From: Hyphomicrobiales bacterium 4NK60-0047b
GTDB taxonomy: Bacteria; Pseudomonadota; Alphaproteobacteria; Rhizobiales; HXMU1428-3
DNA length: 64,000 nt
Reading direction: 5' to 3'
NCBI GenBank assembly: GCA_040367435.1
Contig: BAABWY010000001.1
Location: 496,001 to 560,000, forward strand
How positions within the stretch are numbered: the first letter of the stretch is position 1; every line of letters begins with the position of its first letter. The translations under genes and the position numbers were made by a program. Below are positions 13,669 through 45,480 of this stretch, one piece after another. A model generated the notes under the pieces. That model made no database searches. It was not told the DNA's origin and worked only from the letters and a program-made list of their open reading frames with translations.

Positions 13669-13742
13669 TTGACCGGTTCCTCAAAATTGAAACAAAAAAT
13701 TTCAAAAAAATAAATTCTAATTCTCTAGCAACGCCAGAGCAC

Positions 13743-14213
13743 TTACCAACGATAGTGTGAAAATGCACGGTTAGCTTCAGCCATCCGGTGCGTGTCTTCA
13801 CGCTTCTTAACAGCAGAACCACGATTGTTTGCCGCATCCATCAATTCACCAGACAGACGCTCAACCATTGTATTCTCATTACGGCCACGTGCAGCTGCAA
13901 TCAACCAGCGAATAGCAAGCGCTTTTTTGCGTTCTGTGCGAACTTCAACAGGCACCTGATACGTCGCACCACCAACACGGCGAGAGCGAACTTCAATAGC
14001 AGGACTAACATTCTCTAAAGCCTGATGAAACAATTCAACAGGGTCAGTCTTAGCTTTATCCTCAACACGATCCAAAGCGCCATATACAATGCGCTCAGCG
14101 GCTGACTTCTTGCCATCCTTCATAATGCTGTTCATAAATTTCGTTAAGACAACATCACCGAACTTCGGATCAGGAATGATATCTCTTTTTTCTGCTCTGT
14201 GGCGGCGTGACAT
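13743..14213 (-). CDS. rpsG: 30S ribosomal protein S7
   Basis: A 156-residue S7 ([88 protein letters not shown]). It starts assembly of the small-subunit head. In enteric bacteria S7 represses its own operon by binding between rpsL and rpsG. The gap here is only 83 bp and shows no obvious copy of that structure. Confidence 0.98.
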
Positions 14214-14296
14214 GCTGCTCTCCCAACCAATAACCTAAACAGGTCAATAAACTTAAATAAATATTCGTAAAAACTTAAAACAAGCAACCAGATGGC

Positions 14297-14668
14297 TTAC
14301 TTCGGACGCTTTGCACCATACTTCGAACGACGTTGCTTTCTGTCTGCAACACCTTGAGTATCAAGCACACCGCGTAAGATGTGATAACGAACACCTGGTA
14401 AATCTTTCACACGACCACCACGAATAAGAACAACTGAGTGCTCTTGCAGGTTGTGTCCAACACCAGGAATATAGCTTGTCACCTCAAAGCCATTTGACAA
14501 ACGCACACGAGCTACTTTTCGCATCGCTGAGTTAGGCTTTTTAGGAGTAGTTGTATAAACACGAGTACATACGCCGCGCTTTTGAGGACAAGCCTCCATC
14601 GCTGGCACTTTATTTCTTTTAACCTGCGGTTTCCGCGGTTTTCTAACAAGCTGTTGTATTGTAGGCAT
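14297..14668 (-). CDS. rpsL: 30S ribosomal protein S12
   Basis: A 123-residue S12 with the decoding-centre segments [21 protein letters not shown] and [18 protein letters not shown]. The two lysines whose substitution gives streptomycin resistance in other bacteria (about 43 and 88) are both wild type. It is the first gene of the str-S10-spc cluster. A structured leader runs up to about 20 nt before its start codon, so initiation may be under RNA control. Confidence 0.98.
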
Positions 14669-14688
14669 TTGCTACATCCAAAGTTTAG

Positions 14689-14735
14689 CGCCTTACCAAA
14701 CTCGCTCATCCAATAGAGCGGGCCCATATAAGGCG
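14689..14735 (-). promoter_or_regulatory. rpsL-proximal leader stem-loop
   Basis: Outer arms CGCCTTA (14689-14695) and TAAGGCG (14729-14735) enclose inner arms CGCTC (14703-14707) and GAGCG (14716-14720). In RNA this is a two-tier stem ending about 20 nt before the rpsL start codon, so it could hide or present the ribosome binding site. No poly-U follows, which argues against a simple terminator. Confidence 0.6.
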
Positions 14736-30891: not shown

Positions 30892-31047
30892 TAATCCAAA
30901 TTCCTCATGATGCCGCAATCGCGGGACATCACATTCTTATATCTCTGTAACAAACAGCCTGCCGCCTAATTCCACCCAGCTCCCCAGAAACAGTCAACAC
31001 CACACCCAAAAGAAAAACTTTCAAACCAAAAGCAAAACCTTCAAAAA

Positions 31048-31124
31048 TGGCAGGAGTGGAGGGACTCGAACCCACAACCCCCGGTTTTGGAGACCGGTGC
31101 TCTAGCCAATTGAGCTACACTCCT
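31048..31124 (-). tRNA. tRNA-Trp (CCA anticodon)
   Basis: The reverse strand folds as a tRNA with acceptor AGGAGTG/CACTCCT, a D-arm TAGCTCAATTGG, an anticodon loop CTCCAAA giving CCA, and GGTTCGAGTCC in the T-arm. The CCA end is encoded (31048-31050). Position just upstream of secE-nusG is conserved in proteobacteria. Confidence 0.97.
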
Positions 31125-31461
31125 AAACCCTTGCTACACAAAAATAAAAACCGCATAGCATAAATTACGCCCAACCCCTTCAACTCATACAAGTTAAAAA
31201 ACAAAACCGAGCATAAAAAAGAGACCCCACCAACCGCGTTCTCACGATTAATGCAGCCTATATTCCTGGAAATGAAGATTAGTACGACATATTATTGACA
31301 AGTTCAATAAAAAAAGACGACTTTTTTAATCTTTTTTCAACGGACGTGCAATAGAGCAAAATCACCCGTTAATTCAATCACCTTAAAACTTACCCCAAAA
31401 ATTCAATTTTTTCAATTGAAACACACCAAAACCGGTCAACATCAAAGGGGAGAAACAAAAA
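31125..31461. other. Gap between tRNA-Gly and tRNA-Trp without a gene
   Basis: A 337-bp AT-rich gap. I see a probable minus-strand promoter at 31279-31307 and no open reading frame worth reporting. In many proteobacteria a second tuf gene stands near here, between tRNA genes and secE. No trace of tuf sequence is visible. Confidence 0.6.
31279..31307 (-). promoter_or_regulatory. Candidate promoter for tRNA-Trp, secE, nusG, rplKA
   Basis: Minus-strand TTGAAC (31302-31307) and TACTAA (31279-31284) stand 17 bp apart. It lies 155 bp upstream of tRNA-Trp. The boxes are only moderate matches to the sigma-70 consensus. Confidence 0.4.
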
Positions 31462-31535
31462 TGGAGCGGGTGAAGGGAATCGAACCCTCATCTTTAGCTT
31501 GGAAGGCTATTGCTCTACCATTGAGCTACACCCGC
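31462..31535 (-). tRNA. tRNA-Gly (TCC anticodon)
   Basis: The reverse strand gives acceptor GCGGGTG/CACCCGC, D-arm TAGCTCAATGGTAGAGC, anticodon loop CTTCCAA with TCC, and T-arm GGGTTCGATTCCC, with CCA encoded (31462-31464). It follows tRNA-Tyr by 101 bp, in the conserved Tyr-Gly order. Confidence 0.97.
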
Positions 31536-31623
31536 TTGAATTAAGAGATTACATCAAAACAAACAAAATTGTCTTCTAGAAAATCCCTATGGTAGGTAAA
31601 ACATAACACCAAACAACTAAGAA

Positions 31624-31637
31624 AGGCGCTAGCGCCT
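31624..31637 (-). terminator. Hairpin at the 3' end of tRNA-Tyr
   Basis: AGGCGCTAGCGCCT is a perfect palindrome that abuts the encoded CCA of tRNA-Tyr and is followed on the minus strand by TTCTT. It should form AGGCG-CTAG-CGCCT. It could end tRNA-Tyr transcripts or mark the 3' processing site ahead of tRNA-Gly. Confidence 0.55.
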
Positions 31638-31722
31638 GGTGGAGGGGGATGGATTCGAACCAACGTACTCCGAAGAGATCAGATTTACAGTCTGACGCCT
31701 TTAACCACTCGGCCACCCCTCC
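31637..31722 (-). tRNA. tRNA-Tyr (GTA anticodon)
   Basis: A class II tRNA on the reverse strand with acceptor GGAGGGG/CCCCTCC, an anticodon loop CTGTAAA giving GTA, a long variable arm (TCTCTTCGGAGTAC region), and T-arm GGTTCGAATCC. CCA is encoded (31637-31639). It heads the Tyr-Gly-Trp tRNA set. Confidence 0.97.
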
Positions 31723-31764
31723 GCTCAACACTGACTAAATATAGTCAACAAGCGATAGCGTCTG

Positions 31765-31793
31765 TATATGGAAATTATCGGAGCACCTGTCAA
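31765..31793 (-). promoter_or_regulatory. Candidate promoter of tRNA-Tyr
   Basis: Minus-strand TTGACA (31788-31793) is a perfect -35 box, and CATATA (31765-31770) stands 17 bp downstream. Transcription would begin near 31758, about 35 nt before the tRNA. Confidence 0.5.
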
Positions 31794-31981
31794 CCTGAAA
31801 TTTGCCAGATTTGTAATTTTCCGATAGCAAATATCAAATGATCACAGTATTTTTAATTTTAACAGGGATTTTGCGCCTCCTTTTACCACATTTATGATCA
31901 GCACCTGGCCAAACGGCACCATAAACCAAGGTTTATGAAAAAACCACGAGCCCAAAATTAATAGAAAGTTAGCCCCTCACA

Positions 31982-32809
31982 ATGAGCCAAAACAAAAAAC
32001 GGCCTACAAATAATAAATCTCGAAAGCACGGCCAGAAAAACAAACACGGCAAAAGCACCAATGAGAGGTTTAATATCAGCATTACCGAAGCACCTATTTG
32101 GGGCATACATGCTGTTTCGGCGGCTTTAAACAACCCAAGGCGCAAAATTAAAAAATTACACCTCACCCAAAATGCAGCCCAGCGCATAAGTGAAAGCCTA
32201 AACGCACCCTTGCCCCCTTATGAAGAAGCGTCACCAAAAGACATTACAAAAATCCTGGGCCCAGACCCAGTGCATCAAGGTGCTTTACTAATCGCCTCTC
32301 CTCTTGACGAGACTCAATTAAACGACCTTAAGGGTAACGATTGCATTGCTATACTAGACCAGGTAACAGACCCTCATAACGTAGGTGCAATTCTACGCTC
32401 TGCGGCCGCCTTTAATGTCTCTAGCCTCATCATGACAGCTAGAAACAGCCCTCCCCTTTCAGGAACTCTCGCCAAAACAGCTTCTGGCGGACTTGAAAGC
32501 GTGAACATCATATTAGTCAGCAATCTATCCCAAGCCCTAGATAAAATCGGCGACCTCGGTTACATGCGCATCGGCTTCGACGGGCAAGGTGAAACAACCA
32601 TGGAACAAGAAAAAAGAAGCGAAGGTGAAGCAATCGCACTAATATTGGGCGCTGAAGAAAAAGGCATGCGCCGCTTAACAAAAGAACACTGCGATAAAAT
32701 TTGCAAAATCAATGCTAGTGGGGCCTTCGCCAGCCTCAATGTTTCAAACGCAGCCGCAATCGCATTTCATCACTTTCAAGCACGTGCCTCTAAACAGCCC
32801 AACGAATAA
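31982..32809 (+). CDS. rlmB: TrmH/SPOUT 23S rRNA 2'-O-ribose methyltransferase, RlmB-like
   Basis: A 275-residue SpoU-type enzyme. An N-terminal Lys/Arg/Asn-rich stretch (about 1-30) precedes the substrate-binding domain (APIWGIHAVSAALNNPRRKIKKL). The catalytic knotted domain has the three SPOUT motifs: NVGAILRSAAAFNV, LILGAEEKGMRRL and NASGAFASLNVSNAAAIAF. It most likely methylates G2251 of 23S rRNA in the peptidyl transferase centre; TrmH-family relatives of other specificity are possible. It lies divergent from the tRNA-Tyr promoter. No strong ribosome binding site is seen. Confidence 0.85.
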   Translation: MSQNKKRPTNNKSRKHGQKNKHGKSTNERFNISITEAPIWGIHAVSAALNNPRRKIKKLHLTQNAAQRISESLNAPLPPYEEASPKDITKILGPDPVHQGALLIASPLDETQLNDLKGNDCIAILDQVTDPHNVGAILRSAAAFNVSSLIMTARNSPPLSGTLAKTASGGLESVNIILVSNLSQALDKIGDLGYMRIGFDGQGETTMEQEKRSEGEAIALILGAEEKGMRRLTKEHCDKICKINASGAFASLNVSNAAAIAFHHFQARASKQPNE

Positions 32810-32834
32810 ACTCCAGCAATAATACCGCACAAAA

Positions 32835-32870
32835 AAATAGATCTCGATAAGATTTTATCGAGATCTATTT
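32835..32870 (-). terminator. Terminator between rlmB and the basic secreted protein
   Basis: A perfect 16-bp stem AAATAGATCTCGATAA / TTATCGAGATCTATTT with a 4-nt loop. On the minus strand it is followed by TTTT before GTGC, giving a clean terminator for the gene at 32904. It may also end rlmB transcripts. Confidence 0.85.
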
Positions 32871-32903
32871 AAACATCAAAATTTTAAGCTTTATAAGCCC
32901 AAC

Positions 32904-33314
32904 TTACCAACGTCTAAGATGACGTCTAAAATGACGACGAAGATGTCTGTTACGATAAAAACGCTTCAAACGATAATGACGACGTTTGTAATGGGGACGA
33001 TAATAGCCATAATGACGATAGCGGTAAGGTTTATAGCGATAATGACGATGGCTATAATGACGATGGCGATAGCCATAGTGCCGCCCAAAACGCAAACGGA
33101 ACCGACGATGACCACGTCTATAGCTCCGGCGATAACGGTACCCAACCTTAGCAACCGGTGCTTTATCAGCAATAGTTGCTCTATGATCCACTGTCTTTGG
33201 TGCAGAAGCTAAACCGCCAGCACTAGCCGAACCGATCAAGCCAAATATGCTTAATGCTAATACTGAAACAAAAGCAATAAGCTTCATACGTACGCGAGTT
33301 AAAAATACAATCAT
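32904..33314 (-). CDS. Small secreted Arg/His/Tyr-rich protein
   Basis: A 136-residue protein with a signal peptide (about 1-32, ending GLIGSASA) and, after residue 55, a low-complexity region of about 80 residues made almost only of Arg, His, Tyr, Lys and Phe (for example RHYGYRHRHYSHRHYRYKPYR). Such a chain is strongly basic and could bind metals, polyanions or lipopolysaccharide. No family is recognised. Start: the ATG at 33314 has AAGGAG 8 nt upstream; earlier GTG/ATG codons lie too close to that site. A similar gene lies at 33821. Confidence 0.75.
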   Translation of the reverse strand: MIVFLTRVRMKLIAFVSVLALSIFGLIGSASAGGLASAPKTVDHRATIADKAPVAKVGYRYRRSYRRGHRRFRLRFGRHYGYRHRHYSHRHYRYKPYRYRHYGYYRPHYKRRHYRLKRFYRNRHLRRHFRRHLRRW

Positions 33315-33577
33315 ATGCATCACTCCTTCATAGCCTTAATTAGCTATATAGTCTGATTAACTAAACCATCATGCCACAAATGGTTAATAAATGTTAATCA
33401 ATTCCTAGTGACTATAAAATTGAAAGTCAAGAACAGACCATAGAGTTTGTTTATAATGCCCTTCAAATCACAACCAAAAAACCTTCGAATAGCTTAAAAA
33501 CATTAGGTTTATGCGTTTAAATCGGCAAAACCATAAGTAGAGAGATAGTTTTCAACAAGCACAGTGCGATTGCCTGT

Positions 33578-33683
33578 GGGCCGGTTTCTAGTGGGAAAAC
33601 TGAAGCCCCCTAAAAAAGTCAATCTGAAACGTAAAAAACTGCGCGGCTACCGCGCCGGTTGCTGGTGGGCAACCTGAAGGCGC
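33578..33683. repeat. Second array of the palindromic repeat
   Basis: A full copy at 33652-33683 reads GCGCC-GGTTGC-loop-GCAACC-TGAA-GGCGC and is almost the exact reverse complement of the copy at 764-795. A diverged copy at 33578-33608 keeps the plan with GGGC..GCCC outer and GGTTTC..GAAAAC inner arms. Degenerate pieces (GTCAATCTGAAAC near 33618, GTGGCAACTTGAAGC near 33692) suggest more decayed copies. The constant TGAA bulge marks the family. Confidence 0.75.
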
Positions 33684-33708
33684 ACTAAAGAGTGGCAACT
33701 TGAAGCAA

Positions 33709-33744
33709 AAAAAAGCTGCACGAAATTAATCGAGCAGCTTTTTT
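33709..33744 (-). terminator. Terminator of the 33821 gene
   Basis: AAAAAAGCTGC (33709-33719) pairs with GCAGCTTTTTT (33734-33744). The loop contains CGA and TCG that can extend the stem. T-runs flank it on both strands, so it can act either way. Confidence 0.8.
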
Positions 33745-33820
33745 AATAGGGAAATAAGAAAGATATTATCTGCCGATCCATTAGGAATGGAGGGGGGGAG
33801 ATCAGCAGATAATTTAAATT

Positions 33821-34168
33821 CTACCAGTGGTTATGGTGACGACGACTACGGCGCCAGTTGCGCCGGTGATGCTTGCGCTTACGGTAACAACGATATGGAT
33901 CACCATATCTATCGTAACAAGTCCGATAGCGGCCATAACGATGGCGTGAACGATGCTTGTAATAATGCCCATGAGCATGCGCCCGGCGGCCTTCACTAGC
34001 TATAATGGCAAGAGCTGCAGCTCCAAGAATGGCCCCAGCAACAATTCGACCGCCTTTACCAGCTTGAGCTTGTTTAACTTGTACTGTTGTAACCCCAACA
34101 GTAGTTACTGTGAAAGCCAACATCAAAGTTGCAGCTAAGGTAGCTACCTTATTCGTTAAATGCGTCAT
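33821..34168 (-). CDS. Small secreted Arg/His/Tyr-rich protein, second copy type
   Basis: A 115-residue protein with a signal peptide (about 1-36, ending VKQAQA), a Gly/Ala hydrophobic stretch (IVAGAILGAAALAIIASEG), then a basic tail rich in His, Arg and Tyr with two cysteines (YRTCYDRYGDPYRCYRKRKHHRRNWRRSRRHHNHW). The hydrophobic stretch followed by a basic tail is similar in plan to the Lys-rich protein at 42016. GGGAGG stands 5 nt before the ATG. Function unknown; envelope or metal-binding roles are guesses. Confidence 0.75.
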   Translation of the reverse strand: MTHLTNKVATLAATLMLAFTVTTVGVTTVQVKQAQAGKGGRIVAGAILGAAALAIIASEGRRAHAHGHYYKHRSRHRYGRYRTCYDRYGDPYRCYRKRKHHRRNWRRSRRHHNHW

Positions 34169-34344
34169 AGAAACCTCCCGAGTTTCTGATAAGTCTTTGC
34201 TAAGACCAATATGTGTTAAAAATTCATGCGATCCATAAATGTTCGATTGGGGGAATTACCAAACAGTCTTGATCCTGTAAAAACACATTACATTTTCAAA
34301 CCTGAATGCAACCTGAACGCAATATTTTGACAAGAAAATATAAA

Positions 34345-34378
34345 AAAAACCCGCAAACCGTGAGTTTTGCGGGTTTTT
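34345..34378 (-). terminator. Terminator after the 34406 gene
   Basis: AAAAACCCGCAAA (34345-34357) pairs with TTTGCGGGTTTTT (34366-34378), flanked by A and T runs. It lies downstream of the minus-strand gene ending at 34406. Confidence 0.87.
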
Positions 34379-34405
34379 ATAAAAATAGACCAAATATCTT
34401 ATGAT

Positions 34406-34753
34406 TTAACGATATTTGCCCTTTTCACCACGTTTTGCTCTCCGGCATGGGGTAGATTCAATACTACATTTCCAACCTTCAGCGCCTTTTTTACAATTTA
34501 CCTTTTTATTTTTCGATAAACGCCAATGGCCCCATTCAGACCCATATTCAAAAACTGTGAAACTCGCCCAGCTTTCAATAGCATCTTTAAAAGCTTGCCG
34601 CTTGGACCTAAACACATTACTTGAGCCATAATGTAAATGATCTCCTTGGCAATAAAGCGCCATACGCCCTTTTCGACCAGCTTCAGCATCAGAAATCGTT
34701 AGAAAAGTTACTGCGATGAATAAGACAGGAAAAAGAATTGCGAAAATACGCAT
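34406..34753 (-). CDS. Small secreted protein, unknown
   Basis: A 115-residue protein with a signal peptide (MRIFAILFPVLFIAVTFLTISDAEA) and a mature region with four cysteines (LYCQGD, KVNCKKG, WKCSIES, TPCRRAKRG) and aromatic segments (ESWASFTVFEYGSEWGHWRLSK). Probably periplasmic with two disulfides. The ATG at 34753 has GGAG 6 nt upstream. I do not recognise the family. It may belong with the neighbouring basic secreted proteins, but each has its own terminator. Confidence 0.72.
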   Translation of the reverse strand: MRIFAILFPVLFIAVTFLTISDAEAGRKGRMALYCQGDHLHYGSSNVFRSKRQAFKDAIESWASFTVFEYGSEWGHWRLSKNKKVNCKKGAEGWKCSIESTPCRRAKRGEKGKYR

Positions 34754-34989
34754 CGTAAACTCCAAATGTTAGCCCGTTAGTTATTTAACAATATTCCAGA
34801 ATTTGTATCATTTAAATACTATTGAATTGTTAAAAGCATTTAATATGCCAAACCTTTAATCTAAATCAAAAAGCCTGTTTAAAAATTAATGTTAAAATTT
34901 TTCATTTTAGGGGTAGATTGTATTATTTTTTTGGGTTAGAAGGCTTTCTTCAACAGTGATTAATGCAAAACATTAAATACTGTCTCCTC

Positions 34990-35010
34990 ATGAAATATAT
35001 CATATTTCAT
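34990..35010. promoter_or_regulatory. Inverted repeat just upstream of tRNA-Thr
   Basis: ATGAAATAT, ATC, ATATTTCAT: a perfect 9-bp dyad with a 3-bp spacer ending 6 bp before the mature tRNA-Thr 5' end. It could be an operator, or a hairpin in the tRNA 5' leader that RNase P removes. Confidence 0.55.
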
Positions 35011-35016
35011 TTATGG

Positions 35017-35092
35017 GCCGGCTTAGCTCAGTTGGTAGAGCGGCTGATTTGTAATCAGTAGGTCGGGAGTTCGAATCTCTCAGCCGGCACCA
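35017..35092 (+). tRNA. tRNA-Thr (TGT anticodon)
   Basis: Acceptor GCCGGCT/AGCCGGC, D-arm TAGCTCAGTTGGTAGAGC, anticodon stem-loop CTGATTTGTAATCAG with TGT, T-arm GGGAGTTCGAATCTCTC, and an encoded CCA (35090-35092). It stands alone, and its 3' end faces the AT-rich caspase/hydrolase region, so it is a possible integration site. Confidence 0.97.
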
Positions 35093-35297
35093 TTTTTCAT
35101 AATGTATTTCAGTTGCTTAAATAAGAAGTAAAGTTATTAACTACCACAAAAAGTAACTGAACAGCTCTACCTCAGAAGAAGGTATAACTTTGAGCCTAAA
35201 AGCAAACCCAACACTAATTATACAAAATACCAACCACTGACTTTAGATTAGTTAAATTCATAATAAACTAGGCTAAACACTCATTGAATTGGCTTAC

Positions 35298-36815
35298 CTA
35301 TTCTTTCAATTCCCAATAGCTGTGGCCATTTTTCTTTTTCGGCGTCATATTAACTCGATTTTTCGCACGTTTTCCAGTGGTGAATATAGCCGCCAGATCG
35401 TCTAAAATTGATTTGGCACCAGCTATATAAGAATGACCAAGTAAACTACTATCAATACTAGAAACATCTACTGTCTCAATGCCAGGCACGACAACCAATC
35501 CATTGCCAGCATCTCCTGCACGTGGTCTGTTGCCATGGAATAATTCGGAACCTAACAAGGCATTATCGTTTGATGAAGCATATAGAGTAATGTTTTTAAA
35601 ATTTTGAGTTATCTCAGGTACAATATTGCCTATGAATACACTTGCATCAATATCCGGTGCTGCCAAAATAATTTCCTTAATTTTAGTTTTTGCCTCTGGA
35701 GTTTCTTTTGCCACACCAGAGATAACTTTTGCCAAAGCACGGTTACCCATACTATGGGCGATGATGTAAACATGATCCGCTTTAGATGTTTTTAAGAAAT
35801 CATTGAGAAATTGTTTTAGGTGAGGTTCTGTCCATTGTATATCGACTTCGTCAGAAGTATAGCCCCATGTTGCTCCTTTTGATGGCCAACTATAAAACAC
35901 CGGAGTGCCTTTAAACTTTAGATCAAATGACATTTGGGCAGTCCGTCGAGCGGCATCTTCAAAAGTAACGTTATAACCATGGATGAAAATGAAGGCTTCT
36001 TTGACGTCCGATGACGAAATTTCTTCCCGCAGCATTTTAAAATAATTGTCTTTGTTATGTTTTTTTATTTCCAACAGCACAACATGATTGGCAGGATCTT
36101 CATTCCATTCAAATTTAAAAATGCTTGGTTCCTCAATAACACCAGGTTTGTGACGGTCGCCACCTGGAATGGAAACTTTGGCAACACCAAATTCGAGATA
36201 TGATCCATTAACTAATTGTGACTGTTCATTGCCATAGCGTTTCTTTGGGATTGAAATACTTGTATTCTTACGGTCAGTTGCATAGAACACTGAGACAATA
36301 CCGTATCCATCATTTTTAGAGTTTAATAAATCTCTTTCTTTTATGGTGGGAAGCTCTTTTCCTACCATCACATCATTTTTCGTTCTGTGTTTAATTGCTC
36401 CGGCACGTTTTTTAAAAAATGTAGAGAGTTTATTCCTCCCCTTTTTTTCATAAACAATTGCAAGTAGATCTAAAGCAAAGGCAACATCAGGATGATCTGG
36501 ATCAATTTGCTCTGCAATAGAAAGAGCTAATTTAAAAGCTATTTCTGCATTTTTAAAATCTTTAAGGCTAAAATATATTAGACCAACATTATTTATGGCT
36601 TTGGCATACTTGGCATGGCCTACACCATACTCTGTCTTAGTACCATCAGCATATTGCTTGGCTAAAGGGAGTGCTTCTGCAAATTTATTTTCCTCAAAAA
36701 GCTTAGAGTATTTATCTTTTAGTAATTGTAATTTATTCTCTTGCGCCCCCACAAAATTACAAGTGATAATTAACAAAAAAATAGTAGTTATAATCACACT
36801 AAACAAGTTACGCAT
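35298..36815 (-). CDS. Secreted TPR protein with DUF900-type alpha/beta hydrolase domain
   Basis: A 505-residue protein. A signal peptide (about 1-24, ending VGAQE) is followed by two or three TPR units (about 30-140: NNVGLIYFSLKDFKNAEIAFKLALS). The hydrolase domain runs from 175 to the C-terminus, starting VFYATDRK, with the nucleophile elbow HSMGN (Ser near 355), an acid in APDID (Asp near 388) and His in LLGHSY (near 461). FIHGYNVTFEDAARR is typical of DUF900 esterase-like proteins. The substrate is unknown. GGGGG stands just upstream of the ATG at 36815. It follows a caspase-like gene by 191 bp on the same strand. Confidence 0.82.
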   Translation of the reverse strand: MRNLFSVIITTIFLLIITCNFVGAQENKLQLLKDKYSKLFEENKFAEALPLAKQYADGTKTEYGVGHAKYAKAINNVGLIYFSLKDFKNAEIAFKLALSIAEQIDPDHPDVAFALDLLAIVYEKKGRNKLSTFFKKRAGAIKHRTKNDVMVGKELPTIKERDLLNSKNDGYGIVSVFYATDRKNTSISIPKKRYGNEQSQLVNGSYLEFGVAKVSIPGGDRHKPGVIEEPSIFKFEWNEDPANHVVLLEIKKHNKDNYFKMLREEISSSDVKEAFIFIHGYNVTFEDAARRTAQMSFDLKFKGTPVFYSWPSKGATWGYTSDEVDIQWTEPHLKQFLNDFLKTSKADHVYIIAHSMGNRALAKVISGVAKETPEAKTKIKEIILAAPDIDASVFIGNIVPEITQNFKNITLYASSNDNALLGSELFHGNRPRAGDAGNGLVVVPGIETVDVSSIDSSLLGHSYIAGAKSILDDLAAIFTTGKRAKNRVNMTPKKKNGHSYWELKE

Positions 36816-37006
36816 AATCATCCCCCATTAAAAAACTAACTTTAGCACTTTAATAATTATCCAATTGAAATTGATGACAAGTTTTGCTGAATTAATATTG
36901 CATTTACAGTAAATTTATCAAATCCTTAGTGATCTTTTTAATTCTTAAAATCCGATGGATTACAGAAATGTTTTGGATCTAAAGAACGGTCATATTTATT
37001 AAAAAA

Positions 37007-39220
37007 CTATCTAAATTTTACGCGATTATTTTCTACTACTTGAATATTGTCTTCCTTTAGTTCACTAACAGCTTTCTTATAAAGAGCCGGCCCCTCAACA
37101 CCTCTTCTCCAAATATCACCAGCCCTTGAGAACTCAAGAAAAGAAAGATTCTTTCCCTCTAATGTAAAAACGATATCTCTGTATGCCCTTTTATTGTACG
37201 GTAACGAAACTCTCTCTTTGGTTGTAGTATCCACAAAAACCATAGATTCGAAATCTTTTGAAATATAAGCAATATTTTTCCCATCAGGTGAGATACTAAA
37301 TCCATTTGTGAAAGCTATAGAGTCGTTAATTGTGTCAAGTTCACCTGTTTGCAATTCAAATAACCGAATACTTTTTTTAGTAGCAATACCTACATATTTA
37401 TTATCGTCACTAAACGTTAGTGAATGACCAATTATTTCACTGTTGAGGTCTATACCCTTAGACCACAGTTTCTTTTTAGTTTCTAAGTCATATGCCTCAA
37501 TAAACAATTTCCAGCTGTGCCTGTTTTTCAAATCATTCTCATTAAAATATAGAGTTTTATAAGTAGCAAATATAACATTTTTTTCGTCATTACTTATTGA
37601 GGCTGTAATGTGGGATTGAATATTAATGCTTTTTGCAATATCGATGTGAAAAGACTCGACTTTATTCGTCCATATTGGTTTGCCACTTTTAACATCATAA
37701 ATGCTTACTGGACCAATTACGCTTGAGACAACGGCATATTTCCCCGATGAAGACAACTCTAATTTCGGTACACCTGCAGCCTTATTTGAGGAGCCAGGTA
37801 CTTTGTTTAGTTCCTTAATTTTTTTACCATCATTCGCATCCCATATAACCGGCCGAGCAGTACTCATATCCATAGCAATTACAAATCGCCCATCTCTTGA
37901 AAAACCGGGCTTTCCGTGAGAACCAGAAATTGTTCCGGATTTTTCCAGTGGCAACAATTCAGTTATTAAAGATCCATCTAAAATATTCCATAACTTCAAA
38001 GTTTCGTTTGATTTACTTGCCCCAAATTCGCTATATACTGGCACTGTTGCAACTCTTGAGCCGTCGTGACTGTAAGCAATATAAAAATTATCCAATATTG
38101 GTAATTGTAAGCTCCTAGATCTTACTGCCTTAAATAGTGATACATACGCTTTGTTATAATTTTTTATATCTTCTCTATCAAAATTTTTAGGCAACCCTTC
38201 TAAGGCTTTAGCTACAGCTTCTTTTCTTTTTCCTATTGCTAATAGGTCATTTGCCTCTTTAGCTTTAAGCTCGGAAGCTTTAATAGTTGAAATTGGATCA
38301 ACGCTTCCATTTAAGAAGATTTGATTGGTCAGAGATGACCTTGACCAAGGGGTTTGAGACCAGTTAGTTTTTTCACCTACTTCTTTTGAGACGGCTGCTA
38401 TAACTTTTTGGATTGGCCAACCTGTATGAAATACATTCTTTAAGAAAGCTTCAGTGAAGGGACTAAAATCACCCGCCCCATCAGATGCAGTAGCATTAGG
38501 TGATGTTGAAAAAACTATAAATAGTTCTTCCGAATTCAAAGCTGAATCAAGGTTTTTACTATTAGTTTTTGATTGTGAGCGCTCTGCTGAAATGCCTTTC
38601 ATAGATCGTAAAACAAATTTTTCAGGCGCTAATCCAACTCGGCCTGTTATAGGCAATGGGTTATTTCGACATGCATCTAAAAAAACTAATAAAGATTTAC
38701 TTGTTTTTCCAAAAATTTCAGTAAGTTTATCGAGAGAAACAAGCCCTTTTAAAGATTTATCAACTTTAATAATATCTGTAGCTACAATATAATTATTGTA
38801 TTCAAATTGAACACCATGCCCAGAATAATAGAGTAAAGATAACTCGGAATTTTTCTGGGTCGCCCTATCTGCACAATCAGAAATAACTTGAGCAGACCCA
38901 TCTATAACTACATAAACTTCAAAACCTAAGGTTTGTAAAAAATTTGAGATAGCTGCAGCATCATTTTTAGGATTAGGTAAAAACCAATCCTTCAATAGAT
39001 AATTACTATTACCAATAACCAGGGCTATTCGTCGCTGAACTTTTCCATTTTGAACCAAATTTTTTTTAACAAAATCACTATTGGGTTGAAGAACTGAACA
39101 TTTGCCGCTCTCAATGCCATTAAACCACTGTTGTTTTATAGCAATTTCTTTTGAATAAACTGAAGACGGTGTGAAAAAAATCAAAATTGTAAAGGTAAAT
39201 ATCCTAAAGCATAAATTCAT
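37007..39220 (-). CDS. Secreted caspase-like (C14) protease with beta-propeller repeats
   Basis: A 737-residue protein. A signal peptide covers about 1-23. The caspase-like domain (about 62-300) has both catalytic residues: His135 in YYSGHG and Cys184 in DACRNNP, and it starts RRIALVIGNSNY. Residues 365-715 hold about seven WD40-like or quinoprotein-type repeats (for example SHDGSRVATV, FSRDGRFVIAMD, ISPDGKNIAYI) likely forming one propeller. Prokaryotic caspase homologues often cut after Arg or Lys, but the target is unknown. GGAG stands 6 nt before the ATG. The export signal argues for periplasmic action. It probably shares a transcript with the hydrolase at 35298. Confidence 0.85.
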   Translation of the reverse strand: MNLCFRIFTFTILIFFTPSSVYSKEIAIKQQWFNGIESGKCSVLQPNSDFVKKNLVQNGKVQRRIALVIGNSNYLLKDWFLPNPKNDAAAISNFLQTLGFEVYVVIDGSAQVISDCADRATQKNSELSLLYYSGHGVQFEYNNYIVATDIIKVDKSLKGLVSLDKLTEIFGKTSKSLLVFLDACRNNPLPITGRVGLAPEKFVLRSMKGISAERSQSKTNSKNLDSALNSEELFIVFSTSPNATASDGAGDFSPFTEAFLKNVFHTGWPIQKVIAAVSKEVGEKTNWSQTPWSRSSLTNQIFLNGSVDPISTIKASELKAKEANDLLAIGKRKEAVAKALEGLPKNFDREDIKNYNKAYVSLFKAVRSRSLQLPILDNFYIAYSHDGSRVATVPVYSEFGASKSNETLKLWNILDGSLITELLPLEKSGTISGSHGKPGFSRDGRFVIAMDMSTARPVIWDANDGKKIKELNKVPGSSNKAAGVPKLELSSSGKYAVVSSVIGPVSIYDVKSGKPIWTNKVESFHIDIAKSINIQSHITASISNDEKNVIFATYKTLYFNENDLKNRHSWKLFIEAYDLETKKKLWSKGIDLNSEIIGHSLTFSDDNKYVGIATKKSIRLFELQTGELDTINDSIAFTNGFSISPDGKNIAYISKDFESMVFVDTTTKERVSLPYNKRAYRDIVFTLEGKNLSFLEFSRAGDIWRRGVEGPALYKKAVSELKEDNIQVVENNRVKFR

Positions 39221-39716
39221 TTACTTCTCCATTTTATTCGCAGCAATCACTACTTAATAATTTCATCTTACGTTATTTTTAAATTACAATATAAGTATAT
39301 ATAAAGTACGTATGGAATTTATAATAAATTTTGCTCAGTAAATATCAATGTAGTTTTTGTTAAAATCCTCTAGCTTTTCATGATCTATTTATTCATACTA
39401 GAATATGAAGGCCTCTTTTTCAGAACCAATAAAAATTAGCGACTGAATAACTGCCACTATATTATGTGACTATGGTTAAACTTATTTTATGTATGTTTTG
39501 GTAATTTCAGTAATTTCCAATTTAACTCTCCCTTTGGCAGGACTTATTTGTCCAACAAACTAATTTTACTTACATTAACCCATCAAATCTAGACAAGCTC
39601 TTCAACAAATTTGCCCCTTTGCCCCAACACATCTCTCATTGAACAAAAAAACAAACTCTATAAATTAGTTGCCAAATAGTACTGCGCAATTATATGCCGC
39701 AAACAATAGAGGTCAT
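39221..39716. other. AT-rich gap with no visible gene
   Basis: About 500 bp between the caspase gene and the next small gene, both reading outward. It probably holds both promoters. I see no tRNA, repeat or open frame of note. Confidence 0.5.
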
Positions 39717-39983
39717 ATGATTATAAACAAGCGCATCCTATCAATCATTCTATCTTGCTTATTTTTCTCACCCCCTCCATCCATCTTTTTTGCGACTGAC
39801 CATAGAGCTCATGAGCACTCAACTGCGTTAGATATAGCTGTTCAGGTTGAAGTAAGCGTTGGTCACTTTGAAATAGAAGATAGCGATGATGATGAAATCT
39901 ATACCCATCAATTTTCAGCGGCTTTTAAAATAAATTTTGATGGAGCTCACAACTCGACAATCAAAACCAACGATCGTAAATAA
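39717..39983 (+). CDS. Small predicted secreted protein, unknown
   Basis: An 88-residue frame with a signal peptide (MIINKRILSIILSCLFFSPPPSIFFATD) and an acidic middle (EIEDSDDDEIYTH). AGAGG lies 4 nt before the ATG at 39717, somewhat close. The frame is terminated by a good hairpin 60 bp downstream, which favours a real gene. I do not recognise a family, and codon evidence is thin. Confidence 0.5.
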   Translation: MIINKRILSIILSCLFFSPPPSIFFATDHRAHEHSTALDIAVQVEVSVGHFEIEDSDDDEIYTHQFSAAFKINFDGAHNSTIKTNDRK

Positions 39984-40041
39984 ATGCCTCTTCGAAAATG
40001 TAGCAGCAATCTGCCAAAAAACTAAAATGTCCTACCTAACA

Positions 40042-40083
40042 ACATAAAAGCCTCAATCATAAAATTGATTGAGGCTTTTATGT
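40042..40083 (+). terminator. Terminator downstream of the small secreted gene
   Basis: ACATAAAAGCCTCAATCA pairs with TGATTGAGGCTTTTATGT around a 6-nt loop, an 18-bp stem followed by TTTGC. It sits between the 39717 gene and the GST-like gene. Confidence 0.85.
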
Positions 40084-40187
40084 TTTGCACTGCAAGCAGT
40101 TACCATGCTAATTATAGAGCTCTTTCGAAAGACATAACTCTTCACCAAAGAAGTTATGATAGAGACACATAATTAAAAGGCAGTTCC

Positions 40188-40802
40188 ATGTTAAACCTCT
40201 ATTATGCCAAGGGAACAGCAGCCCTAGCGCCGCATATTCTCCTTGAAGAAATTGGCAAAGATTACGAAGCAACATTTGTTGATTTTACAAAAGCAGAACA
40301 AACCAGTCCTGAGTTTCTTAAGCTCAACCCAAAGGGACGTGTCCCAGCTCTCATCACACCAAAAGGAATACTCACAGAAACACCAACCATTTTAGCATAC
40401 CTCGCAAATACAAATACTAATCTATCTTTAGCGCCAACTGATCCGTTTGAGTTCGCCACAGCTCAATCATTCAATGATTATGTAAACTCAACAGTTCATG
40501 TCATGCACGCTCATGGTAAACGCGGATTTCGCTGGGCAGATGACATAGCCGCTCAAGAAAGCATGAAAGCCAAGCTCACAGAAAACATGTCAGAATGCGC
40601 CAGGATTATAGAAACACATTATCTAACTGGCCCCTTTGTGCTGGGAGACAATTTCTCAATTTGCGATCCATATCTTTACTTGGTCACTAGATGGCTTATT
40701 GATGATGGCCTCACTCTTGATGCTTATCCGAAAATCATCCAGCACCGAGACCTAATGAACCAAAGAGCCTCCGTAACAACAGTGATAAAATTGCATAATT
40801 GA
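40188..40802 (+). CDS. Glutathione S-transferase-like protein without the usual cysteine
   Basis: A 204-residue protein with an N-terminal thioredoxin-like domain (MLNLYYAKGTAALAPHILLEEIG, NPKGRVPALI, TETPTILAYLA) and an all-helical C-terminal domain with GPFVLGDNFSICDPYLY. The layout matches beta-class GST. The catalytic Cys usually found in a G-x-C-S-L segment is replaced by Ala (GTAALAPH), so conjugation chemistry may rely on another residue or be lost. It follows a terminator and is followed by a long inverted repeat, so it looks monocistronic. Confidence 0.85.
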   Translation: MLNLYYAKGTAALAPHILLEEIGKDYEATFVDFTKAEQTSPEFLKLNPKGRVPALITPKGILTETPTILAYLANTNTNLSLAPTDPFEFATAQSFNDYVNSTVHVMHAHGKRGFRWADDIAAQESMKAKLTENMSECARIIETHYLTGPFVLGDNFSICDPYLYLVTRWLIDDGLTLDAYPKIIQHRDLMNQRASVTTVIKLHN

Positions 40803-40810
40803 ATAACCAC

Positions 40811-40861
40811 AAGAACCTGGCCCACTAGCATCATTTCAATTTAGAATTGGGCCAGGTTCTT
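40811..40861 (+). terminator. Long-armed hairpin after the GST-like gene
   Basis: AAGAACCTGGCCCA (40811-40824) pairs with TGGGCCAGGTTCTT (40848-40861), a 14-bp stem with a 23-nt loop, 8 bp after the stop codon. No strong T-run follows, so termination strength is uncertain. Confidence 0.65.
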
Positions 40862-41043
40862 CATACTTATGCGAGCTTCTAACCAATGCCATTGTAAGCA
40901 CTAACGCAATCATCCCAAAGCCAAAATCTGTAAAAGGACACATAAAGAGGAACAACTAGACCTCCCTCCTAAGTTCAATTACTTTATAATCATGGAAATT
41001 TTCTAATCTCAAGAAATGAGACAATAAAACCAAGGGAACAAGC

Positions 41044-41391
41044 ATGGAAAAGATCATCAAAGAAATTGTAACTTTTCTCACCGAAGGTATTGCAATCACC
41101 CTCAAATTTCTTCAAATGGTCTGGACTTGGTCCTTCGGTCAAATCATAGAAATTTTTCAATCTAATTGGCAAGCACTTCCTGTTTGGAAAATCGTTATCC
41201 TTGTGCTCACGATCGGTATCGTTTCTTATTATCTATACACAGCTGCCAGACAAATCTGGAGCGCCACAGAAGATGTCTTCAAAGCCTTCGTAACCTTACT
41301 CAGCGCCTTTGTCAGTGTCCTGCCATACATCGTCATTTCTGGCCTTGCAGCCTTTGGCGGCGGCTATGTCATCCAAAACATAAATTTTTAA
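41044..41391 (+). CDS. Small membrane protein, unknown
   Basis: A 115-residue protein with an amphipathic N-terminus (MEKIIKEIVTFLTEGIAITLKFLQMVWTW) and two clear transmembrane segments (about 46-68 VWKIVILVLTIGIVSYYLY, and about 82-108 AFVTLLSAFVSVLPYIVISGLAAFGGGY). AAGGGA stands 7 nt before the ATG. No family is recognised. It is isolated between two hairpin-bounded genes. Confidence 0.7.
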   Translation: MEKIIKEIVTFLTEGIAITLKFLQMVWTWSFGQIIEIFQSNWQALPVWKIVILVLTIGIVSYYLYTAARQIWSATEDVFKAFVTLLSAFVSVLPYIVISGLAAFGGGYVIQNINF

Positions 41392-41445
41392 CTAACTGTA
41401 CCGCCAAAAACAATTAAAAGCCCCTCCAAATTTTAACATATAAAA

Positions 41446-41823
41446 TTATGCAGCCTCAACACTTTCTAAAAAGCTGTTTATCTCATTTAATAATTCATCT
41501 GTATTTTCAGAGGCACCTTTAGCAGCGTCCAAAACTTCACCAGCAGAATTTTTTGTAACTGCAACAGTTTCTGCTAAATCATTCATATTCCCAGTTACAG
41601 TCCCTGTACCCTCAGCCGCTTTAAGCACACTTTGTGAAATTTCATTCGTTGCCATACCCTGCTCGCCAACAGAATTCTCAATAGCAGCAGTAAAGCTATT
41701 AACTTCACCCATAGTTTTGGTAATAGATTCTATAGAATGAACAGCTTCAGCAGTGGTTTCTTGAATAGCAGTAATATGAGTGCGTATCTCATCGGTTGCT
41801 TTAGAGGTCTGGGTCGACAGTTC
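41446..41823 (-). pseudogene. 3' remnant of a methyl-accepting chemotaxis protein
   Basis: Reading on the minus strand from 41823, the frame gives ELSTQTSKATDEIRTHITAI and continues through QETTAEAVHSIESI, VGEQGMATNEIS and a C-terminal coiled coil to a stop at 41446. This is the last part of a chemoreceptor signalling domain after the hairpin tip. Upstream of 41823 the similarity stops abruptly and the frame runs into GLQF and unrelated sequence. No membrane or sensor part exists. It is a truncated gene, probably cut by a mobile element whose end remains next to it. Confidence 0.82.
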
Positions 41824-41829
41824 ATTAAA

Positions 41830-41935
41830 TTGGAGACCGCCAACACCTGAGGGAAAAATTCCAATGGACCAAATGCAAGCTTTAAATTAACTTTCAAAAT
41901 GGACCACTCAATGGGGGCCGATCAAATAGTCGCAT
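41830..41935. mobile_element. Possible insertion-sequence end remnant
   Basis: Immediately beyond the broken chemoreceptor lies non-coding sequence with a repeated motif, CAATGGACCAAATG (near 41862) and AAATGGACCACTCA (near 41898), 35 bp apart, next to GGAGACCGCCAACA. Internally repeated terminal motifs of this kind are found at the ends of IS21-family elements. No transposase frame remains. The identification is by resemblance only. Confidence 0.35.
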
Positions 41936-41952
41936 AAGAAGCTTAAAACAAA

Positions 41953-41981
41953 AAAAATCACCTGCAGAGCAGGTGATTTTT
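41953..41981 (-). terminator. Terminator of the Lys/Tyr-rich protein gene
   Basis: AAAAATCACCTGC (41953-41965) pairs with GCAGGTGATTTTT (41969-41981) around a 3-nt loop, with a run of T following on the minus strand. Confidence 0.88.
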
Positions 41982-42015
41982 AAATAGCTTCCAACTAAAA
42001 ATTCTAAATTAAATA

Positions 42016-42582
42016 TTATAAATATGGACACAATCTGCGCGGACCACCACCATTTGGCTGGTAAGTGCCATCGTCTGTAAAGGAAGTAAAGTCAGCCTCA
42101 CAACGCGCCCAAGGATCACCACCTTGTTTCTTCTTTTTGCTATTCGCATTTTGCGGTTTATATGCGCCGGTACCTGGCCCATCGTCATATTTAGGATCTA
42201 AACGGTAAGAAGAACAGCCCTCTTCTTTTTCATGCGCATGCCAGAATTTACCCTTGAAAACTTTATGATAGTGGTTCTTACCACCTGTATGGCAATGAAC
42301 CTTATGTACTTTTTTAGCTTTATATTTTTTCTTATACTTCTTTTTATAAGCCTTCTTCTTATAGACTTTCTTTTTCTTATAAACTTTTTTCTTGTGTTTC
42401 TTTTTTTTATTCGCCTTAGAAACTTCATTTAAAATAATCGCACCAGCCGCAACACCAATAGCAATACCGAGTATTTTTTTACCCTTATTTTTTGCCTGAG
42501 CTGACTGCATGCCAGCAGAAAGTGGTAGAAGAGCAAAAGTTAACAGTGCAACCATCACCCCTTTAAGTAACTTATCTCTCAT
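42016..42582 (-). CDS. Secreted Lys/Tyr-rich repeat protein
   Basis: A 188-residue protein. A signal peptide (about 1-30, ending MQSAQA) and a Gly/Ala/Ile stretch (KILGIAIGVAAGAIILNEV) precede a strongly basic repeat region with KKKxYKKK-type units (KVYKKKKVYKKKAYKKK). A C-terminal part follows with histidines and cysteines (VHCHTGGKNHYHKVFKGKFWHAHEKEEGCSSYRLD, CEADFTS, RRLCPYL). AAGGA stands 7 nt before the ATG at 42582. The plan (signal peptide, hydrophobic stretch, basic tail) is like the protein at 33821, but with Lys instead of Arg/His. Function unknown. Confidence 0.75.
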   Translation of the reverse strand: MRDKLLKGVMVALLTFALLPLSAGMQSAQAKNKGKKILGIAIGVAAGAIILNEVSKANKKKKHKKKVYKKKKVYKKKAYKKKYKKKYKAKKVHKVHCHTGGKNHYHKVFKGKFWHAHEKEEGCSSYRLDPKYDDGPGTGAYKPQNANSKKKKQGGDPWARCEADFTSFTDDGTYQPNGGGPRRLCPYL

Positions 42583-42801
42583 CTCACAATCCTTCAAAAA
42601 CCTAATCAAAACTTTACACTTAGAACTCATACAAATACAAAAAACACATTAATCTGCATCTTTGATCTGTCTCAGAGTAATCCAATAAACCTTAATGTAC
42701 TTTAATCCAGCCTAAACCCAAATAACAAATTAAAGTTTCGTTATATTCATTCCATAGTGAATACAAACTGAATAAAACTACTAAATTTTAGGGATATTAC
42801 A

Positions 42802-43341
42802 GTGGAATTAAGACAATCTCACGGTCACGAAATCAAAGATATAACAAAAATTCATCTAGAGGCTTTTAACGAGACAGAAGGTCCTATTGTCTCAGAATTA
42901 GCTAAAAACATACTCAATGATAAAACCGCCGAACCAAGACTATCCCTTGTCGCAGAAAAACAAAATGAGCTGCTCGGCCATGTCTTATTTACAAAGTTAG
43001 AGATTGAGACAGACAAATATAACTTAAATGCCAGAATTCTAGCCCCCTTAGCCGTGCGTCCCAAAGTGATGAAAACGGGCATTGGCAGCAAACTAGTTAC
43101 AAAAGGCTGTGAGCAATTAAAAAATGACGGTGTAGAACTAATTTTCGTTTACGGTGACCCCAAATATTATTCACGCTTTGGTTTCAAACCAGCCAAACCA
43201 CTAGGGCTCTTGCCCAGTCACCCTATTCCAAAAGAATATGAAGAAGCCTGGATGGTGATGAATCTGGCAAACAAGACGTTTCAAAAAATGAATTGCAAAG
43301 TCAAATGCTGCCAAGCACTTGATGATCCTAAATTTTGGTAG
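42802..43341 (+). CDS. GNAT N-acetyltransferase, YhbS-like
   Basis: A 179-residue acetyltransferase. The acetyl-CoA site is in LAPLAVRPKVMKTGIGSKLVTKGCEQLK (R/Q-x-x-G-x-G/A type, about residues 80-110), followed by VYGDPKYYSRFGFKPAKPLGL, a segment typical of YhbS-type enzymes. The start is GTG at 42802 with AGGGA 7 nt upstream. Substrate unknown; small molecules or aminoacyl groups are possible. Confidence 0.85.
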   Translation: MELRQSHGHEIKDITKIHLEAFNETEGPIVSELAKNILNDKTAEPRLSLVAEKQNELLGHVLFTKLEIETDKYNLNARILAPLAVRPKVMKTGIGSKLVTKGCEQLKNDGVELIFVYGDPKYYSRFGFKPAKPLGLLPSHPIPKEYEEAWMVMNLANKTFQKMNCKVKCCQALDDPKFW

Positions 43342-43545
43342 ACATAAAACCAAACAATTTCTCTAACTACAAAGCCCTTGCCTACAAAGTCAAAGTCTCT
43401 GCCATATTACCTCCCATATATCGTACCTTTGTTGTCACCTAATTGTTGCTCTTCACAGCTATATATTGAATCAAAATAAAACCACACAAAATCTGTAACA
43501 GATAAAATTACAGATCGCTGATATCATTGGAGATTAAAAAAAGTC

Positions 43546-45480
43546 ATGGAAAATACACCCGTGGAAAATTTAGAAGAACTTTCATTTGATGACTTTGACG
43601 AAACCATCTCTCCCCCACCAGCTGAGACAGAGTTTGAAAATATTATCGAAAAAGCCCTCACAAGAAGAGACCTCATGGGAGGCGTTATCTCCTTCGGTTT
43701 AGGTAATTTCCTTCTTGGCTCAACAGCCCTTTCAGCCAAAACACCTGACGCAATGAAGGAAAACGATCTCTTTGGGTTTACTCAAATTCCAACCAACACA
43801 AAAGATACGATCACAGTTCCAGAAGGGTTTGAATGGAAAACCATTATTAAATGGGGCGACCCTCTCTGGTCAGACACGCCTGAGTTCGATCATAAGACAC
43901 TCGGAAATTCAAAAACCCAATCCCGCTCATTTGGAGACAATAATGACGGCATGTCTTTCTTCGCTCATGAAAACCACATGCTCCTTGCTGCAAACAATGA
44001 ATACACAAACAAAAAATGGTTCTACCGCAACAGAGAAAGCGGCAAACCAGAAACTGACGATGACATCGCAAGAAACATGGCCGCCCATGGCATCTCTATT
44101 TTCGAAATCAAACAAGTTGATGATCAGTGGCAAATTATAAAAGACAGTCCCTTTAATCGCCGTATCACAGCAACAACAGAAATCGAAATCACAGGCCCAG
44201 CTGCCGGGCACGATCTCTTAAAAACATCTACTGACCAAGCTGGTCTCACTGCACTTGGCACCTGGAACAATTGCGGTAACGGTAAAACCCCTTGGGGCAC
44301 ATATCTAAGCTGCGAAGAAAATTTCAATGGCTATTTCACATCATCTGATAAAGAGTTTGAACTAAGCCCTCCATTAAAGAGATACGGCATTTCTAAAAAG
44401 GGCCGTGGTTATAATTGGGAACGTATCGATCAACGTTTCGACATATCAAAAGAACCAAACGAGCCAAACCGCCATGGCTACATTGTTGAAGTTGATCCGA
44501 AAGATCCTTCAAAGCCTATCAAAAAAAGAACAGCTCTTGGTCGTTTCAAACATGAAAACGCTGAAGTTGTCATCGCAAAAAATGGCAAGGTCGTTGTCTA
44601 TATGGGCGATGATGAGCGCGGCGAATTCCTTTATAAGTTCGTCTCTGATGGTACTTATGAAGAAGGCAAATCAACATCTCAGCTCTTAAGCAAAGGCACA
44701 CTATATGTTGCCAAATTCTATGATGACTTAAAAGGCTCTTGGTTACCACTCAACCCGGAAACAACAGGCATGGCATTAGCTGAAATTTGCATTCATACTC
44801 GCTTGGCAGCCTCAAAAGTGGGGGCAACAACCATGGACCGCCCTGAATGGGTTGCGGCAAGCCCAACAAAGGTTGAATGCTTCTGCGCTCTTACAAATAA
44901 TAAAAACAGAGGGATGAAGCCAAACAAAGGCGGGGATGAAACTCCAGTTGAGGGACCAAACCCACGTGAAAAAAATGTTTACGGTCAAATTCTAAAATGG
45001 ATCCCTGAAAAAGAAGACCATACATCAACCAACTTCACATGGTCTCTCTTTGCACTAGCCGGTAACCCAACTGTTCATGACAGAAATGCAGAAGACAAAC
45101 AGGAAAAGCTAAAAGCTGGCTCTCCAAATATCAATGCAGGGAATATGTTCAACTCACCTGATGGCCTCGCCTTTGATAGCAAAGGCATGCTTTGGATCCA
45201 AACGGATGGAAAATATTCCAACAAAGGTGAGTTCGAGGGTATGGGTAATAATCAAATGCTCGTCGGCAATACCCAAACCGGAGAAATTCGCAGGTTTTTA
45301 GTCGGGCCTAAAGAATGTGAAGTCACAGGCATTTGTTGGTCAGAGGATAAAGCCACTCTATTTGTTGGAATCCAGCACCCAGGTGAAAAAGGGGGAAGTC
45401 ACTTCCCTGATGGAGAAAATTTAGTCCCACGCTCTGCGATCATCTCAGTCCGCAAAAAGAATGGGAAAGCATTTGGTTAA
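43546..45480 (+). CDS. PhoX-like phosphatase / DUF839 protein
   Basis: A 644-residue protein of the DUF839 (PhoX) family. A twin-arginine-type signal seems to lie near residues 40-65 (LTRRDLMGGVISFGLGNFLLGSTALSA), so it should be exported folded by Tat. Family segments include TPWGTYLSCEENFNGYF, KRTALGRFKHENAEVV, KVVVYMGDDERGEFLYKFVS and FNSPDGLAFDSKGMLWIQTDG. PhoX-like enzymes are calcium- and iron-dependent phosphatases, but many DUF839 members are untested. The acidic N-terminal 40 residues before the Tat motif are unusual. No PHO-box-like repeat was identified. Confidence 0.85.
   Translation: MENTPVENLEELSFDDFDETISPPPAETEFENIIEKALTRRDLMGGVISFGLGNFLLGSTALSAKTPDAMKENDLFGFTQIPTNTKDTITVPEGFEWKTIIKWGDPLWSDTPEFDHKTLGNSKTQSRSFGDNNDGMSFFAHENHMLLAANNEYTNKKWFYRNRESGKPETDDDIARNMAAHGISIFEIKQVDDQWQIIKDSPFNRRITATTEIEITGPAAGHDLLKTSTDQAGLTALGTWNNCGNGKTPWGTYLSCEENFNGYFTSSDKEFELSPPLKRYGISKKGRGYNWERIDQRFDISKEPNEPNRHGYIVEVDPKDPSKPIKKRTALGRFKHENAEVVIAKNGKVVVYMGDDERGEFLYKFVSDGTYEEGKSTSQLLSKGTLYVAKFYDDLKGSWLPLNPETTGMALAEICIHTRLAASKVGATTMDRPEWVAASPTKVECFCALTNNKNRGMKPNKGGDETPVEGPNPREKNVYGQILKWIPEKEDHTSTNFTWSLFALAGNPTVHDRNAEDKQEKLKAGSPNINAGNMFNSPDGLAFDSKGMLWIQTDGKYSNKGEFEGMGNNQMLVGNTQTGEIRRFLVGPKECEVTGICWSEDKATLFVGIQHPGEKGGSHFPDGENLVPRSAIISVRKKNGKAFG

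Follow-up and report, generated by a model that had tools for sequence, protein, structure and literature searches.

Why does a bacterial caspase that appears to be exported sit beside a hydrolase that appears to be exported as well, and do the two proteins act together? The question is raised by a 64,000-nucleotide stretch of the 3.47 Mb genome of Hyphomicrobiales bacterium 4NK60-0047b (G000:C1:496001-560000; hereafter the window), in which a preliminary description placed two neighbouring same-strand genes for secreted proteins with intact catalytic residues and proposed that the hydrolase could be the protease's substrate or partner. Both open reading frames lie where it placed them, on the minus strand: the caspase gene comes first (37007-39220, 737 aa), followed after 185 bp by the hydrolase gene (35298-36821, 507 aa). 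The C14 caspase and DUF900 families are already known. Prokaryotic caspase homologs, or orthocaspases (C14B), are recorded as abundant in Alphaproteobacteria, some with a possible signal peptide, in the part of the survey drawn on here (Asplund-Samuelsson 2012, PMC3501461), while DUF900 alpha/beta hydrolases (PF05990) are described as being of unknown function in the excerpt of PMC11878206 that we used.

The two genes are the sole genes of an AT-rich segment of 4.54 kb (35098-39636, 34.1% G+C), delimited by blastn of window positions 31000-44000 against L095, L096 and L097. The segment starts five bases past the 3' end of a plus-strand tRNA-Thr (TGT) gene found by ARAGORN (35017-35092), which forms its left border. 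The closest congener, G003, matches the window at ~94-95% as far as position 35097 and again from 39637 onwards (at 76% identity, then 84%), with ~142 bp in place of the 4.54 kb; the segment is also missing from G002 and G006, so that the site is empty in three of the seven congeners (G004 and G007 align on the tRNA side only, and G001 and G005 were left out). This break at 35097 places the insertion at the tRNA 3' end, as in tRNA-site integrative elements. No third gene, and hence no integrase, was found on the segment, nor any att-like direct repeat of the tRNA region of at least 11 bases. The AT-richness and the neighbouring tRNA-Thr that the preliminary description had remarked upon are thus borne out, and the segment now looks acquired: flanking 2-kb windows have G+C fractions of mostly 0.36-0.45, and the two genes have 34.5 and 36.5% G+C, as against 36-45% for the nine other C14 genes of the genome. 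Because they constitute the whole content of a tRNA-side segment absent in three congeners, the two genes make up an accessory cassette. The segment is most simply explained by their having been acquired jointly, which is probable, with loss in the relatives as the alternative. In G003 (L095), ~2.6 kb extra lies between the counterparts of window positions 41391 and 42011, and the neighbourhood is therefore variable at a second place.

The caspase belongs to its family far beyond chance (Peptidase_C14, PF00656, E 6.5e-32, 111.5 bits against a cut-off of 21.4). Its C14 domain spans residues 63-300 (38321-39034), and the dyad H135/C184 is present in register with the C14 family profile. Two acidic residues, D87 and D182, fall opposite two acids of MALT1 in an alignment that leaves out the position of the third (Glu500); we take the matching acids to be Asp365 and Asp462, which the part of PMC4357240 used here names as S1 residues. 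This register would suit Arg or Lys at P1, and from it we infer compatibility with cleavage after a basic residue. Residues 1-23 (39152-39220) resemble a signal peptide, as judged, like the hydrolase N-terminus, from hydropathy and an A-X-A-type site (here VYS before KE) rather than by SignalP. The seven-repeat propeller that had been described corresponds to a region at about residues 379-674 (37199-38086) with weak THOC3/WD40-type Pfam hits and ~23-25 strands in a low-confidence AlphaFold model (mean pLDDT 59), whose input alignment contained caspase-domain relatives only. Many of the best PDB matches of this low-confidence model in Foldseek are WD40 propellers, some of them 7-bladed; a propeller-like region is suggested, and seven blades are plausible. 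The protein shares with orthocaspases the C14 domain, the Cys-His dyad, a C-terminal repeat module and probably the acidic S1 residues (PMC3501461, in the part used here), but differs in that the propeller follows the caspase with no NTPase between, and in its DUF900 neighbour.

Such proteins are not singular in this genome, in which ten C14 and two DUF900 genes were counted. By eye, hydrophobic N-termini are seen in eight C14 paralogues (L105-L112) and not in L113, and exported-looking caspases are therefore usual in the host. The locus might alternatively encode an anti-phage or cell-death module that acts in the cytoplasm, of the EACC1 or another NTPase-linked type. A PADLOC caspase model does match the window caspase at 2.7e-9, and the NCBIfam EACC1 caspase model (NF047832) scores 33.3 bits; the latter's cut-off, however, is 140 bits, so that EACC1 membership was rejected, and the export-like N-termini and a segment devoid of any other gene speak against such a module, which we consider very improbable.

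The neighbouring protein is a predicted-exported TPR-DUF900 alpha/beta hydrolase (PF05990, E 1.7e-45, 155.7 bits against a cut-off of 20.5; TPR_12, PF13424, E 5.1e-10), modelled by AlphaFold from a 50-row alignment with a mean pLDDT of 86. A signal-peptide-like N-terminus (residues 1-26, 36744-36821, with an A-X-A-type site, VGA before QE) is followed by TPRs of the kinesin-light-chain type (about residues 41-146, 36384-36701; phmmer to kinesin light chain TPRs, E 2.9e-14), a linker with several Lys/Arg (about residues 147-170, 36312-36383), of low confidence at 152-167 (pLDDT <50), and a confidently modelled catalytic domain (residues 171-507, 35301-36311). S357, D390 and H463 are invariant across the 50 rows, so the claim of intact catalytic residues stands for both proteins, as does that of signal peptides at the level of hydropathy. 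Lipases, esterases and cutinases lead the Foldseek matches at low TM-score, and a PDB sequence search gave matches confined to the TPR part; a lipase-like activity is a guess from the fold. Relatives are widespread, occurring among the best 80 of 282 matches in Cellvibrionaceae (50%), Shewanella (48%), Flavobacteriaceae and Verrucomicrobia. Many are shorter than the window hydrolase, and the N-terminal part therefore varies. The protein has the fold, catalytic residues and export-like N-terminus of DUF900 hydrolases; it differs in the kinesin-light-chain-type TPRs in front and in the adjoining caspase.

Our best reading, held tentatively, is that the segment is an acquired, envelope-targeted cassette in which the caspase acts on the hydrolase by processing or regulating it. 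Both proteins would be exported to the periplasm or beyond, as hydropathy suggests. The caspase would be an orthocaspase-type protease with a preference for Arg/Lys at P1, and its C-terminal propeller may act as a sensor, gating caspase activity upon binding of a ligand or partner. The hydrolase, a putative enzyme of the lipase/esterase fold, could be restrained or docked by its TPRs and flexible basic linker, through which the caspase might activate or regulate it; alternatively, the two proteins may both act on one envelope target. Either way, the cassette would help the cell envelope respond to stress or conflict.

For the putative pairing, the preliminary description had raised the prospect of a conserved operon. 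A search of 397 genomes of the order gave six full-length caspase relatives, in G362, G153 (two), G125 and G199 (two), matching well beyond the caspase domain with 27-31% identity over the alignment and joining the window caspase in the tree with support 99 (L160-L165); in three cases (L161, L162, L163) a second caspase adjoins the relative. No DUF900 hydrolase lies near any of the six in the 14-16 kb fetched, and the hydrolase is absent at E<=1e-50 from all four genomes; a conserved orthologous pair, and with it, by the refuting condition that the preliminary description itself had set, a conserved operon, was therefore rejected. In 385 genomes of the class, no other caspase match reached 1e-36. 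Full-length relatives of the caspase are missing from all seven congeners, in which the best match (E 5e-25) is confined to the caspase domain. A DUF900 hydrolase is encoded in six of these congeners, the top matches being 42-44% identical to that of the window and those placed in the trees grouping with the host genome's other DUF900 gene. Plasmids gave partial matches to either protein, none covering 80%. No caspase relative was found on viral contigs, and the eight hydrolase relatives on IMG/VR contigs (L280-L287) have no caspase in the fetched flanks. The two proteins have different sets of relatives, and within the genomes searched the exact pair is a one-off.

These results count against a functional link and agree with a chance meeting of the two genes in a hot spot beside the tRNA, as unrelated accessory genes with independent roles carried on one AT-rich donor piece. 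A further point against the link is that the nearest kin of the hydrolase mostly lack a caspase neighbour. The 185-bp gap shows no sign of an operon, a promoter and terminator consensus scan is at chance level (19 promoters found against 18.9 expected), and ten C14 genes in one genome make a caspase beside any gene less surprising. We regard chance adjacency as a serious possibility, though doubtful, since the segment carries just two genes, both on one strand, and C14 genes adjoin DUF900-TPR hydrolases above an internal control, as follows.

Neighbourhoods were read for 40 of the 57 other matches in the order at E<=1e-50 (38 regions) and for the 80 named loci of the genome scan (the best 80 of 282). 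Removal of ten near-copies from the resulting 119 loci left 109, of which 84, the window included, had at least 2.5 kb on both sides. Sixteen of the 83 non-redundant hydrolase relatives other than the window have a C14 gene within 2.5 kb (17/84 with the window counted; the scan part being the best 80 of 282). C14 density is about five times higher near the hydrolase than far from it, with 18 genes per 584 kb within 3 kb and 6 per 966 kb at distances of 3-10 kb (binomial p 2.3e-4, with kinship left out of account). On the trees, the caspase-neighbour label needs 7 changes against shuffled means of ~14-16, the mean being ~14 on a careful 77-row tree from which 32 rows that were long branches or near-copies had been removed beforehand (the quick tree having 109 rows). 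The family-level link between C14 and DUF900-TPR genes is real. Its arrangement varies: the neighbouring caspases come from various clades and stand in various orientations, tail-to-tail where they bear PPC domains (L175-L177), head-to-head in L178, L181, L237, L256, L260, L265 and L273, and on one strand, separated by a single gene, in the Flavobacteriaceae L209, L211, L213 and L225; in two of the 16 loci (L191, L258) the near C14 gene lacks the dyad. This recurrence hints that the proteases and the enzymes cooperate. The co-occurrence anticipated at the outset is hence seen for the families and not for the exact pair, and the original interpretation is supported in part: in export, residues, AT-richness and tRNA site, though not in a conserved operon.

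The caspase-adjacent loci have a further component. A CHAT gene is present in 8 of the 17, the window counted, against 0 of the 67 other loci (L178, L209, L237 and L273 by Pfam; L211, L213, L225 and L256 by a profile built for this analysis). These eight loci fall in two clades only, and the independent evidence is therefore smaller than the p-value suggests; most of the family-level signal, too, traces to two clades. The window itself has no CHAT gene by the same profile. It could be related, in reduced or rewired form, to the caspase-CHAT-DUF900 neighbourhood of Alphaproteobacteria and Flavobacteriaceae: the two families are the same, both proteins are predicted to be exported, the arrangement is known from the eight loci, and one exported-looking TPR-CHAT protein is encoded elsewhere in the host genome. 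Yet the window caspase comes from another clade, CHAT is missing, and on the careful tree the hydrolase stands outside the main caspase-neighbour clade, so that we think this origin decidedly unlikely. Forcing the hydrolase into that clade fell short of rejection on the careful tree (AU test p 0.09), and with the quick 109-row tree the constrained topology even came out ahead (p 0.82); its grouping with the caspase-bearing Flavobacteriaceae was rejected (AU test p 9.6e-5).

Craspase, which is CRISPR-guided, reportedly unites TPR parts with a clan CD protease in a single genetic module. The window is alike in having both within one such module, but shows no CRISPR part and carries its TPRs on the hydrolase; the Craspase protease is the TPR-CHAT protein Csx29 (PMC10028731, in the part used here). 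Conflict systems with death-like domains employ caspases and lipid-directed alpha/beta hydrolases as effectors, according to the part of PMC8195603 drawn on, so that both enzyme types likewise occur in one class; as described there, those systems are built on adaptor domains and NTPases, whereas the segment holds no further gene. In the literature covered, which takes in part of that on DUF900, we found no account of caspase-DUF900 neighbourhoods, nor of the recurring exported caspase-CHAT-DUF900 kind. A broader and unlikely idea is that exported caspases and DUF900-TPR hydrolases, often with CHAT, form an envelope device that has been assembled repeatedly and independently. In it, cleavage by clan CD proteases would turn on a lipase, making the device the periplasmic equivalent of membrane attack triggered by caspases, and the window would carry a pared-down form of two genes that entered the tRNA site as one unit. 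Should the preferred link between caspase and hydrolase be functional, bacterial caspases would gain an export-side role with a defined lipase-fold enzymatic partner. The numerous C14 proteins of Alphaproteobacteria that look exported would then have a substrate open to testing. With only two genes, the cassette is of a size that allows direct biochemistry.

Several observations were made beside these. The eight caspase-CHAT-DUF900 loci, from two phyla and with exported-looking caspases, possibly represent an undescribed module. In L209, a trypsin-ankyrin gene lies upstream of this neighbourhood. The host genome's one exported-looking TPR-CHAT protein is encoded at a contig end (L290:185-3670), and a TPR-caspase gene near the end of another host contig (L112:692-3022) might adjoin it. 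In L256, ORFs that by eye resemble transposases (13578-14704) lie between a TPR ORF and a CHAT ORF, as if a TPR-CHAT gene had been split by insertion.
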